Source of the DNA: Aurantiacibacter sp. D1-12
Lineage (GTDB): Bacteria > Pseudomonadota > Alphaproteobacteria > Sphingomonadales > Sphingomonadaceae
NCBI RefSeq assembly: GCF_028858515.1
Contig: NZ_JAPJZJ010000001.1
Span: 620,001 to 684,000 of the forward strand
Direction: 5' to 3'
DNA: 64,000 nt
Made by a program: the position numbers and the translations under genes. This document shows positions 48,360 to 52,572 of this stretch, one piece after another. How positions within the stretch are numbered: the first letter of the stretch is position 1; each line of letters starts with the position of its first letter. The notes under the pieces are model-generated. The model was not told where the DNA came from and did not search any database. It saw only the letters and a program-made list of their open reading frames with translations.

Positions 48360-49121
48360 ATGTCAGAACAACTCAATCGACTGCTCTCCATCATGGCGCG
48401 CCTGCGCGACCCTGACCATGGTTGCGAATGGGATGTAGCGCAAACCTTCGAAACGATCGCGCCGTACACTCTAGAGGAAGCCTACGAAGTCTCTGACGCC
48501 ATCGAGCGCGACGATATGGACGATCTGCGCGGCGAGCTTGGCGATCTGCTGCTGCAGGTCGTCTTCCACGCACGCATGGCTGAGGAAGCTGGCCACTTCG
48601 CCTTTGAAGACGTCGCGAAGGCAATCTCGGACAAGATGGAAGCGCGCCACCCGCATATATTCGGTGACGAAGGCGGTGTAATGGACGGAAAGCGCTGGGA
48701 AGACCTGAAGGAAGCGGAACGGAAGTCTTCGGGCTCGGACAGCGCGATGGATGGCGTGGCAAAGGCACTCCCGGCGCTCTTACGCTCTGAGAAGTTGCAA
48801 AAGCGCGCTGCACGGGTCGGTTTCGAGTGGGAAGATGCACGAGGTCCACGCGATAAACTGCTGGAAGAATTACAAGAACTGGATGAGGCTTCCGAAGAAG
48901 AGAAACTAATGGAGGCCGGCGATGTGCTGTTCGTCGCGGTGAATATCATTCGGCGTTACGGCGTGGATGCAGAGCAGGCGCTCAAAGCATCCAATGCCAA
49001 GTTCGAACGTCGTTTTCGCGCGATGGAGGAACTTGCCAAGGCAGATCACCAAAACTTTGCTTCGCTGTCTCTGGATGAGCAGGAAGAGTACTGGCAGCGC
49101 GCCAAAAGAACCGTGGGCTAG
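48360..49121 (+). CDS. mazG: MazG nucleoside triphosphate pyrophosphohydrolase
   Basis: MazG hydrolyses NTPs to NMP and PPi, helping nucleotide-pool cleaning and ppGpp balance. The 253-residue protein has two MazG repeats. The first shows RLRDPDHGCEWDVAQTFETI near residue 15, EEAYEVSDAIER near 39 and ELGDLLLQVVFHARMAEE near 60 with the acidic EExxE/ExxD metal sites. The second near 170 (LLEELQELDEASEEEKLMEA then GDVLFVAVNIIRRYG) repeats it. It converges with hflX, with a 4-base stop overlap. An AT-rich gap precedes it. Confidence 0.94.
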   Translation: MSEQLNRLLSIMARLRDPDHGCEWDVAQTFETIAPYTLEEAYEVSDAIERDDMDDLRGELGDLLLQVVFHARMAEEAGHFAFEDVAKAISDKMEARHPHIFGDEGGVMDGKRWEDLKEAERKSSGSDSAMDGVAKALPALLRSEKLQKRAARVGFEWEDARGPRDKLLEELQELDEASEEEKLMEAGDVLFVAVNIIRRYGVDAEQALKASNAKFERRFRAMEELAKADHQNFASLSLDEQEEYWQRAKRTVG

Positions 49122-50389
49122 GAACCCAAGGCCTCGAAACGGCCGAATTCCTTATCGGTCAAGCGAACCTCTATCCGGCGTAGCGGGCCGCCCTCACCCT
49201 CACCTGCATCCGCTTCGGCGAGAACTTCTCCGTTGGCATGGAGCCAGGCGATCCGTTGGCCGTCACTTGCCAGAATTTCGAGCGCATAAGTCTTGGCGCC
49301 CTCGGTCAGAACCGCGCCAAGCCGCTGCTGAAGGCTGTCCAGACCATCACCGGTAATGGCCGAAATCGCGAGAACACTGTCGTCCGATGCCGCGATGCAG
49401 CCTAGCTCCTCGCGAGCGTCTTCATCGAGCAGATCCCACTTGTTCCATACCTCGAGTACGGGGGCGTCCACGCCCTCCCCCGCCTCATCCACCACTCCAA
49501 GGTCGTGGAGAACGGCAAGCACTTGCCGCTTCTGCTGCGCGCTATCCGGATTGGCAATGTCGCGGACATGCAGGACGATGTCAGCGGCGGTTACCTCCTC
49601 CAGTGTCGCTCGGAAAGCGGCAACGAGTTGCGTCGGCAAGTCAGAGATGAAGCCCACAGTGTCAGACAGGATAGCCTTCTCCACGCCGGGCAGGCCGATT
49701 GCGCGCATGGTCGGATCAAGCGTGGCGAACAGCAAGTCCTCCGCCATGACGTCAGCACCCGTCAAGCGATTGAAAAGTGTTGATTTTCCAGCATTCGTAT
49801 AGCCGACGAGCGCAATAACCGGCCACGGTGCCCTCCCCCGTCGCTTGCGATGCAGTTCGCGCGTCTTGCGTACCTGCTCCAGTTCACGGCGCAGCTTTGC
49901 CATGCGATCGCGGATCATCCGGCGGTCAGCCTCGATCTGCGTCTCACCCGGGCCACCCAGGAAGCCGAAACCACCGCGTTGACGTTCAAGGTGGGTCCAG
50001 CTGCGCACCAGACGGCTGGCCTGATAATCGAGGTGTGCAAGTTCGACCTGCAAGCGACCTTCGGCCGTTGCCGCTCGTTCTCCGAATATTTCGAGAATCA
50101 GACCTGTGCGGTCGATCACCTTGCGGCCGATCTTCTCTTCCAGATTACGCTGCTGGATCGGCGTAAGCGCTCCATCCACGATAACCAGCTCGGCTTCGTG
50201 CAATTCGCAATCGGTCTTGATCCGCTGCACCTGCCCTTCCCCGAAAAGGGTGTTAGGGCGGATATCGCGGACGTTGAGGATGAAGGCCTCTGCAACGACA
50301 ATGCCGATCGCCAGCGCAAGGCCTTTCGCTTCTTCAAGCCGGGCTTCAGGGTCTTCCCCACTGCGCTGGCCGCGAATATCCGGGCACAC
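49118..50389 (-). CDS. hflX: GTPase HflX
   Basis: HflX is a ribosome-splitting GTPase used under stress. From the first canonical start in frame (GTG at 50389) the protein has 423 residues. The HflX domain shows RPNTLFGEGQVQRIKT near residue 44, QQRNLEEKIGRKVIDRTGLI and the QRGGFGFLGGPGETQIEADR loop near 137. The G domain has VALVGYTNAGKSTLFNRLTG (Walker A), LSDTVGFISDLP and NKWD. Homology-like sequence (VTRGARALVV) continues upstream to the hfq stop without any ATG, GTG or TTG, so the true start may be non-canonical, for instance CTG 50446. It follows hfq in the same frame. Confidence 0.9.
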   Translation of the reverse strand: MCPDIRGQRSGEDPEARLEEAKGLALAIGIVVAEAFILNVRDIRPNTLFGEGQVQRIKTDCELHEAELVIVDGALTPIQQRNLEEKIGRKVIDRTGLILEIFGERAATAEGRLQVELAHLDYQASRLVRSWTHLERQRGGFGFLGGPGETQIEADRRMIRDRMAKLRRELEQVRKTRELHRKRRGRAPWPVIALVGYTNAGKSTLFNRLTGADVMAEDLLFATLDPTMRAIGLPGVEKAILSDTVGFISDLPTQLVAAFRATLEEVTAADIVLHVRDIANPDSAQQKRQVLAVLHDLGVVDEAGEGVDAPVLEVWNKWDLLDEDAREELGCIAASDDSVLAISAITGDGLDSLQQRLGAVLTEGAKTYALEILASDGQRIAWLHANGEVLAEADAGEGEGGPLRRIEVRLTDKEFGRFEALGS

Positions 50390-50458: not shown

Positions 50459-51022
50459 TTAGTCTTCGTCTTCATCGCTCTCGCCAAACCCGTCGTCGGT
50501 CAGATCGACGTGGGTGGCGGGCTGGATGGTCGAGACGGCGTGTTTGTAAGCCAGCTGCACATAGCCTTCACGCTCGAGCAACATGCAAAACAGGTCATAA
50601 GCGGCAATGCGGCCTTGCAGCATCACGCCATTGACGAGGAACATCGTCACCTGAACCGCTGCATCACGCACACGACTGAGGAAGATATCCTGCAACAGAC
50701 GCTGCTTGCGATTTCCGTCAAAGCCGGTGTCGAAGCTGTCTGCGTCTACAGGGTTGCTGGGCATGATGGTGGAAACGGCATGTTTGTATACCAGCTGCGA
50801 TTGGCCATCACGGCGCAGCAGGATCGAGAAATTGTCGAACCAGGTGACGATGCCTTGCAGCTTCACGCCTTTCACCAGGAACATGGTGACCGGCATTTTT
50901 TCTTTGCGCAGGTGGTTGAGGAACAAGTCTTGCAAATTGCCGACTTTCGGCGCCGTATTCGTCGAAACCTGCTCTTCCTCTACTGCCGGACGCGGCCTTG
51001 CGGAGAGGGTACCCTTGGCCAT
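50459..51022 (-). CDS. hfq: Tandem-domain RNA chaperone Hfq (two Sm domains)
   Basis: The ATG at 51022 has GGAG eight bases upstream and gives 187 residues, about twice the usual Hfq. Two Sm domains lie at about 27-90 and 106-170, exactly 80 residues apart. Both have LQDxFL (Gln31, Gln111), VTMFLVxGVxLQG, a conserved Phe (65, 145) and YKHAVSTI (Lys80-His81, Lys160-His161) of the proximal face. Copy 1 keeps the basic rim (LRKEK). Copy 2 has VRDAA there and Met134 where E. coli Lys31 lies. An acidic tail ends the protein. A functional ring may be a trimer of two-domain chains. It sits between ntrX and hflX. Confidence 0.93.
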
Positions 51023-51183: not shown

Positions 51184-52572
51184 CTAGTCGCCCGAATCCG
51201 CCTTTTCGTTCCGGTCATTCATGCCGAGCAGCTTCAGCTTACGGTGCAAGGCAGACCGCTCCATCCCGATAAAGCCCGCGGTTTTTGAGATATTGCCCGA
51301 GAAGCGACGAATCTGAATCCGCAGGTACTCGCGCTCGAAGCTCTCGCGCGCTTCACGCAGAGGTACGCCCATCAGGTTGGTCATACCCGAACCGCTATCA
51401 GATGATGCACCGGTGATCTCTTCGGGCAACATTTCGGGCGAAATCGTCTCGAACTCCTCGCGCGGCGCAAGGATGACCGTACGCTCGATCACATTGCGGA
51501 ACTGGCGCACATTGCCTGGCCAGTCATAGGCCTGCAGCGAAGCCATCGCCTCTGGCGCCACAGATGGCGGATGAAGCCCCTGTTCGCGCGCATATCGCGT
51601 GAAGAAATGCTCGGCCAGGGCCGGAATGTCATCGCGCCGCTCAGCCAGCGGCGGGATTTCAATGGGCACCACGTTCAACCGGTAGAACAGGTCTTCGCGG
51701 AACCGCTTCGCCTCGATTTCTGCGAGCAGATCCTTCGCGGTGGAGGAGACCACGCGCACATCAACACCGATCTGACGGTTGCCCCCTACGCGCACGAAGC
51801 TCTGATCGGTGAGAACACGCAGGATGCGGGCCTGTGTGCTCTCCGGCATATCTGCGACTTCATCGAGATAGAGCGTTCCGCCGTCCGCGAGTTCGAGCAG
51901 ACCGGGGCGGACAAGCTTGCCGTCCGCTTCCTCGCCAAAAAGCTCCGGCTCGAACCGCTCTGGCGTTATGCGCGCCGAGTTGACCGATACGAAGGCCTTG
52001 TCTGCACGCGGGCTCCAGGCATGCAGCAGCCGCGCGGCGACTTCCTTGCCTGCTCCGGCCGGGCCGCTGACCAGCACCCGGCTTCCGGTATTGGCGACGC
52101 GCTTCAGCGTCGCGCGAACATTGTTGATAGCCGAGGAGTTACCGGTGAACTCGTCGGGTGACGTCATGCCTTCGCGCAGACGTTCGTTCTCGCGCCGCAA
52201 CCTTTCGGTCTCGGTAGCGCGCTCGACGAGGTGCAACAGCTTTCCAGCCTCAAACGGCTTTTCGATGAAGTCCATCGCGCCGCGGCTGACAGCGGAAACC
52301 GCGGTATCGATATTACCGTGGCCGGAGAATATCAGCACAGGTAGACCGGGCTCGCGCGCCTTGATGGCATCGAGCACTTCCAACCCGTCGCGCGGCGAGC
52401 CGTGCAGCCACACGTCAAGCAGCACCAGGCTCGGGCGGCGCTCGTCAACCATCGCGATGGCTGTCTCGCTGTCGCCAGCGGTACGGCACTCATAGCCTTC
52501 GTCGCTCAGGACGCCGGCCACAAGATCACGAATATCCCGTTCGTCATCGACTACGAGGATGTCGAGTGCCAT
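51184..52572 (-). CDS. ntrX: Nitrogen-related response regulator NtrX
   Basis: NtrX is the response regulator partner of NtrY. The 462 residues include a receiver domain (VVDDERD acidic pocket, phospho-Asp53 in LVLLDVWL), an AAA+ ATPase domain with Walker A GPAGAGKE at 170-177, and Walker B LYLDEVADM near 227. A C-terminal Fis-type helix-turn-helix (NISKTAGFIGMERSALHRKL) ends it. The GAFTGA loop that contacts sigma-54 is absent: the matching part reads ELFGEEADGKLVRPG, as in other alphaproteobacterial NtrX proteins. It is therefore likely not a classic sigma-54 activator. Order ntrY-ntrX-hfq is standard. Confidence 0.94.
   Translation of the reverse strand: MALDILVVDDERDIRDLVAGVLSDEGYECRTAGDSETAIAMVDERRPSLVLLDVWLHGSPRDGLEVLDAIKAREPGLPVLIFSGHGNIDTAVSAVSRGAMDFIEKPFEAGKLLHLVERATETERLRRENERLREGMTSPDEFTGNSSAINNVRATLKRVANTGSRVLVSGPAGAGKEVAARLLHAWSPRADKAFVSVNSARITPERFEPELFGEEADGKLVRPGLLELADGGTLYLDEVADMPESTQARILRVLTDQSFVRVGGNRQIGVDVRVVSSTAKDLLAEIEAKRFREDLFYRLNVVPIEIPPLAERRDDIPALAEHFFTRYAREQGLHPPSVAPEAMASLQAYDWPGNVRQFRNVIERTVILAPREEFETISPEMLPEEITGASSDSGSGMTNLMGVPLREARESFEREYLRIQIRRFSGNISKTAGFIGMERSALHRKLKLLGMNDRNEKADSGD

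Follow-up and report, generated by a model that had tools for sequence, protein, structure and literature searches.

The window, the 64,000-nucleotide stretch of Aurantiacibacter sp. D1-12 DNA that was analysed, carries a double-domain hfq gene whose open reading frame begins with an ATG at 51022 and ends with a stop at 50459 on the minus strand, as read from the list of open reading frames and the translation (Table 1). In a profile search, the Pfam Hfq family PF17209 matched two stretches of the encoded chain (186.7 bits; cut-off 27). The curated Hfq threshold of TIGR02383 was also passed (175.5 bits; cut-off 61.7), and NCBIfam NF010691 (PRK14091), a model of the RNA chaperone Hfq built for the double-domain form, scored 303.8 bits (cut-off 270) with profile positions 6–174 of 176 aligned. 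Searched at the genome level, the two Hfq matches span 50935–50747 (108.6 bits) and 50695–50507 (82.4 bits); a profile search of the genome (2.57 Mb, 12 contigs) returned no further Hfq match, and a second, separate hfq was dismissed as a candidate on that basis. The first-pass annotation of the sequence had described an exact 80-residue period, and this holds (L30/L110). The period varies from 72 to 83 among 106 distinct relatives, with values of 79–81 in 88 of them, and copies 1 and 2 of the window protein are 56% identical over 61 columns. The gene lies between hflX and an ntrX-like response regulator gene, both named from context. Both neighbours were matched at 108 of 109 two-domain loci, a set that includes the window and in which its gene is present twice, and at 72 of 75 named two-domain loci.

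Table 1. Features of the double-domain hfq locus, with positions in the window; residue numbers refer to the window protein unless marked as E. coli
Feature	Position	Strand	Basis
Double-domain hfq, 187 aa	50459..51022	-	Translation; PF17209 twice; NF010691; genome search
N-terminal extension, residues 1-29	50936..51022	-	Mean pLDDT 57-67 per block of ten (low confidence)
Copy 1 Sm/Hfq domain, residues 30-94	50741..50935	-	Profile match; AlphaFold; VIA-align
Copy 1 rim patch R39-K40-E41-K42 (E. coli 16-19)	50897..50908	-	Three basic residues in 101/106
Copy 1 distal-face K51..K54 (E. coli 28 and 31)	50861..50872	-	Lys28 in 106/106 copy 1s
Linker, residues 95-109, including basic R105-K106-Q107-R108	50696..50740	-	Length and charge counts
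Copy 2 Sm/Hfq domain, residues 110-174	50501..50695	-	Profile match; modelled alone
Copy 2 rim R119-D120-A121-A122 (E. coli 16-19)	50657..50668	-	Basic residues mostly 0-2
Copy 2 distal-face N131..M134 (E. coli 28 and 31)	50621..50632	-	Met31 in 100/106, Asn28 in 105/106
Acidic C-terminal tail, residues 175-187, ending ESDEDED	50462..50500	-	Tail charge counts
Downstream hflX	49118..50389	-	ORF; tblastn match in 109/109 two-domain loci (L001-L152 set)
Upstream ntrX-like response regulator gene	51184..52572	-	ORF; tblastn match in 108/109 two-domain loci

The first-pass annotation had read the protein as two full Sm domains, in agreement with the two Pfam stretches and with the Hfq folds predicted for both halves. 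The AlphaFold model, built with 76 sequences, contains a helix and five strands in each half with mean pLDDT values of 93–98 for the core blocks; in copy 1, the helix spans residues 30–40 and the five strands fall within residues 44–88. The model of the whole chain has a pTM of 0.75 despite 42 residues under pLDDT 70, which suggests a defined placement of the two domains. By sequence, the best solved relative is Hfq from Caulobacter crescentus (PDB 6gwk), and none of the 35 sequence matches in the PDB, the longest of 114 residues, is long enough for a double Hfq. VIA-align placed model residues 27–99 on Caulobacter Hfq (6gwk_R) and residues 105–174 on a solved Hfq, both with Z 9.9, and both copies matched the solved Hfq fold in the single-chain comparison of Foldseek. 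Copy 2 was also modelled alone, giving five models with pLDDT values of 93.7, 92.3, 89.9, 73.9, and 49.0. The best of these superposed on Caulobacter Hfq (6gwk_X) with a TM-score of 0.96 (target-normalised) and an rmsd of 0.6 Å over 66 columns. The second domain, on whose fold the earlier reading of the chain had been made to depend, is thus predicted to have the Sm fold.

Alignment with single-domain Hfqs, recommended by the same annotation, was carried out with 106 distinct double proteins (106 copy 1s and 106 copy 2s) and 41 single-domain rows, the latter unthinned for identity. The counts leave out L002 (the same gene as L001), two identical doubles, and L086 and L092, each an additional locus from a genome represented elsewhere in the set. 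Protein searches covered 120 genomes, in four sets of 30, that were hand-picked for a spread of genera. Residues were given E. coli numbers by way of the E. coli Hfq sequence. A further 64 named sequences were found with a pattern containing the copy 2 motif NGVM, and they are uninformative for positions 28 and 31. On the proximal face, the translation contains YKHAVSTI and the Gln of LQDxFL in both copies, as had been noticed at the outset. The residues Q8, F/Y42, K56, and H57 are kept in both copies of 103 of the 106 proteins, as they are in the window protein; in copy 2 taken by itself, K56 and H57 are present in all 106 and Q8 in 105. Position 41 is Asn in 91/106 copy 1s and Leu in 82/106 copy 2s. 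Judged by these sequences, the predicted proximal pore is six-fold in its key residues.

The rim differs between the copies. Copy 1 has LRKEK at residues 38–42 where copy 2 has VRDAA (118–122), an early observation that the translation confirmed, so positions 16, 17, and 19 are R, K, and K in the former and R, D, and A in the latter. All three positions are basic in 41/41 singles and 101/106 copy 1s. Copy 2 rims with 0, 1, 2, and 3 basic residues occur in 26, 59, 20, and 1 of the 106 proteins, respectively, and the loss is therefore graded; two basic residues remain in copy 2 of 28 of the 64 proteins in the named sample. A loop-4 arginine (the equivalent of Caulobacter R49) is basic in 103/106 copy 1s and 3/106 copy 2s, with Glu in 82 of the copy 2s. 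The seven residues that precede helix 2, which include RKQR in the window protein, carry a net charge of +2 or more in 79/106 proteins; the same pre-helix stretch has a net charge of 0 in 40/41 singles and of 0 or +1 in 86/106 copy 1s. From its sequence, the basic patch of copy 2 may be displaced beside the helix instead of absent. Because the Hfq helix begins closer to the pore than to the rim, the RKQR linker need not be equivalent to a rim patch. The first-pass claim that copy 2 had lost its basic rim patch stands for the complete patch, found in one of 106 proteins, and has to be qualified by the retention of R119 and by RKQR beside the helix. A net charge of −3 or lower is typical of the copy 2 tail (94/106) and of the tail of single-domain proteins (39/41) and is found in the linker after copy 1 in 3/106 proteins; the tails of 12/106 double Hfqs are less acidic than this.

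On the distal face, Met134 takes the place of a lysine (K54 in copy 1), as first described and as confirmed in the translation. Position 31 is Lys in 98 and Arg in 8 of the 106 copy 1s, and it is Met in 100/106 copy 2s; the six exceptions all belong to one fast-evolving genus (g12). The double Hfqs of this genus (L057, L060, L062, and L118–L122) are 43–54% identical to the window protein. All eight carry indels and six are without Met31, and the locus is still found between ntrX and hflX. Position 28 is Asn in 41/41 singles and 105/106 copy 2s and Lys in 106/106 copy 1s; at the level of sequence, copy 1 also departs from the single-domain state. The asymmetry of rim and distal face that the first-pass annotation had pointed out is thus lineage-wide in the 106 proteins, and three of its elements had been overlooked: K51 of copy 1, RKQR, and an acidic tail on copy 2 only. 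In Pseudomonas Hfq structures, the backbone of K31 forms a hydrogen bond with the phosphate of the A nucleotide, and in simulations the backbone of N28 contacts the N nucleotide (both from excerpts of PMC8121710). With these contacts made through the backbone, side-chain changes at positions 28 and 31 might, by analogy, tune ARN binding and not abolish it. A further nearly fixed difference lies near the end of the last strand, at position 63 (M87, 50762–50764, in copy 1; Q167, 50522–50524, in copy 2). This residue is Met in 41/41 singles and 95/106 copy 1s and Gln in 101/106 copy 2s, and the difference could mark distinct domain–domain interfaces.

A survey of 296 genomes of the order included 213 from the window's family, of which 202 gave two Hfq matches and 11 gave one; the 83 genomes outside the family gave one match in 76, none in six, and two, on different contigs, in one (the counts 213, 202, 11, and 83 were tallied by eye from the result rows). 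The suggestion that double-domain Hfq occurs in sphingomonads is supported by these 202 genomes, which also dispose of an oddity of this genome alone. For the fetched loci, the presence of both matches in one open reading frame was confirmed, yielding the 106 distinct double sequences; a sequencing or assembly artefact was rejected given the same two-domain frame in all of them, with the same neighbours. Of 289 genomes of the class, four scored above the NF010691 cut-off, and these are the only members of this family among them; none of 14 control genomes did. The best score outside the family was 147 bits against the cut-off of 270, below which a strongly diverged double could fall. Occurrence outside the family was set aside on these results, and within the samples examined the two-domain Hfq is confined to one GTDB family. 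Two domains are present in named relatives such as Aurantiacibacter, Novosphingobium, Qipengyuania, Sphingomonas, Sphingobium, and Sphingopyxis. Genome G001, from a different family of the order, was considered as a possible tandem and rejected, its two Hfq matches (L090 and contig C82) lying on different contigs; the second match covers query residues 18–66 only and is perhaps contamination or a second gene.

In a tree of the flanking HflX and NtrX, a quick build in which 20 of 68 inner branches are open, the 50 double rows form one clade (SH-aLRT 100) and the nine single-domain rows of the family all lie outside it; one single-domain row of the family (L059) is placed among other families. 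With one double clade and the family's singles outside, the simplest history, and the apparent one, is one duplication with no reversal in the sample. Since the tree shows one change, a history of recurrent gains and losses of the second domain was rejected. A scan of a viral collection returned one relative, a separate single-domain Hfq with 59% identity (L233:2980-3261) on a contig of 52 kb that is catalogued as viral (IMGVR_UViG_3300043777_000338). Neither hflX nor ntrX had a match in the DNA around it, and either the hfq may be mobile or the contig bacterial and mis-filed.

The explanation that we favour, at a probability of roughly 0.55, is that the gene is the genome's housekeeping Hfq and that its double-domain product forms a three-chain, alternating pseudo-hexamer. 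The mechanism we infer begins with one in-frame duplication that would have doubled hfq in the ancestor of most of the family. Three chains would then probably assemble into a ring of six Sm domains, with the two copies in alternation. The proximal pore would be six-fold and would bind sRNA U-tails in the ordinary way. The rim would be three-fold, with a full Arg/Lys annealing patch as a rule on copy 1 only, as would the distal face, where copy 1 has basic residues at both 28 and 31 and copy 2 usually has none at either. After the fusion, only the three copy 2s would have a free acidic C-terminal tip, and each tip would regulate the intact rim of a neighbouring copy 1; the rim that lost its tip, that of copy 2, would be the same rim that lost the basic helix residues. 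Both neighbours of a copy 2 in an alternating ring would be copy 1s, so the three tips would meet three full rims, a pairing that we infer from sequence together with the Caulobacter structure. The fuller statement, that a six-fold proximal pore combined with three-fold rim, distal face, and tip regulation has been kept by selection since one duplication, is offered more tentatively, at somewhat worse than even odds. The graded rim loss, the basic linker before helix 2, the weaker tails of 12/106 proteins, the faster evolution of copy 2, the spread in pLDDT among the models of copy 2 alone, and the packing of Caulobacter tails against neighbouring hexamers count against the proposal. The first-pass annotation had likewise suggested a trimer of two-domain chains, an idea in print since 2010; the change in sRNA–mRNA matching that it attached to the trimer would be a putative consequence.

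How much of this asymmetry is held by selection was judged from changes counted by parsimony on a tree of the same HflX/NtrX flanks. A three-chain pseudo-hexamer could have acquired its rim differences by relaxed constraint, three patches being enough and the others decaying with no new function. This reading, which we regard as rather unlikely, draws on the free change of the copy 2 rim: positions R16, R17, and R19 changed 30, 37, and 48 times in copy 2 and 0, 27, and 7 times in copy 1, and one of the 27 copy 1 R17 changes was between basic and non-basic residues. Copy 2 R16 flipped between these two states 20 times. Positions 41 and 38 of copy 2 are loose too (15 and 17 changes), and copy 2 evolves at roughly double the rate of copy 1, with a median dN/dS of 0.21 versus 0.11 (959 non-independent pairs sharing branches, with eight diverged rows with indels left out); plain relaxation would give the same faster evolution. 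Decay does not predict, however, that N28, M31, and Gln63 of copy 2 and K28 of copy 1 would be nearly fixed. Position 28 shows no change in copy 1 and one in copy 2, position 31 shows one and four, respectively, and Gln63 of copy 2 shows three. Copy 2 R19, basic in only 6/105 despite its 48 changes (raw parsimony), may also speak against decay. Given the near-constancy of positions 28 and 31 in both copies, the distal-face alternation looks held by selection; the rim difference of copy 2 may reflect either release from constraint or selection for non-basic residues.

Other assemblies would use six chains. The copies differ enough for possible self-sorting, and a spacer of 21 residues, from the last strand of copy 1 to the start of helix 2, would be compatible in length with six chains forming two stacked homotypic rings, one of each copy, joined by linkers. 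Neighbouring domains are, however, a simpler match to the confident arrangement of the single chain (pTM 0.75), and both copies keep the fold of a protein that makes one homomeric ring; these two points are indecisive, and we consider stacking improbable. A ring of six chains in which each contributes a single domain and the second domain hangs free is more improbable again. The faster change of copy 2 fits it, as does nothing else that was found, and it sits poorly with the conservation of K56, H57, and Q8 in copy 2, residues that work in the pore of the assembled Hfq ring.

The asymmetry between the copies is real and lineage-wide in the sample. An ordinary Hfq has several RNA-binding surfaces, all repeated six times on identical subunits, which makes the effect of having just three rims or three tails hard to probe. 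If the proposed alternation is true, a mutation in one copy would affect three of the six positions, and the family would offer a natural test of the number of rims and tips required in an Hfq ring and of the independence of neighbouring rims. The alternation would also be relevant to the control of the rim by the acidic tail, the tail being on one copy only and the full rim largely confined to the other. In practical terms the significance is modest, limited as it is to one bacterial family.

Both copies of the window protein have Q8, F42, K56, and H57 in common with E. coli Hfq, which has one domain per chain and carries R16/R17/R19 and K31 in every subunit. The Novosphingobium case was reportedly first noticed by Sun et al. 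in 2002. Two copies of hfq-like genes in Novosphingobium aromaticivorans are mentioned, with citation of another paper, in an excerpt of PMC3474761. Double-domain Hfqs are very likely working riboregulators: Hfq-dependent repression by the sRNA SuhB is described for Sphingopyxis granuli in excerpts of PMC6563040, and S. granuli is taken to have a double Hfq by its genus, the four fetched Sphingopyxis Hfqs (L216, L217, L219, and L220) all being double-domain. Excerpts of PMC10725011, PMC9797736, and PMC5770649 contain no mention of two Hfq domains, and no published description of copy asymmetry was found in the literature surveyed by excerpt. The two-domain architecture is already known, and the asymmetry of its copies is apparently undescribed.

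The window protein has the same architecture as the NF010691 family, with no difference seen. By its description, it is also like Hfq of Zymomonas mobilis (ZMO0347), with two domains per chain. Yang et al. (2010; excerpts of PMC2877685) reported the two Sm-like domains of that protein, noted the double form in six further species of Sphingomonadales, and posed the question whether a ring is formed by three proteins; a Z. mobilis Hfq mutant had lower tolerance of several inhibitors, and asymmetry between the copies at residue level is not described in those excerpts. Caulobacter crescentus Hfq resembles the window protein in the fold of both copies, the acidic C-terminal tip, and the basic rim. 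In that protein, the acidic tip of one protomer touches the basic rim of the next, and in the crystal the tails also pack against neighbouring hexamers (excerpts of PMC6561178). Unlike the window protein, Caulobacter Hfq has one domain per chain and hence six identical rims and six tips.
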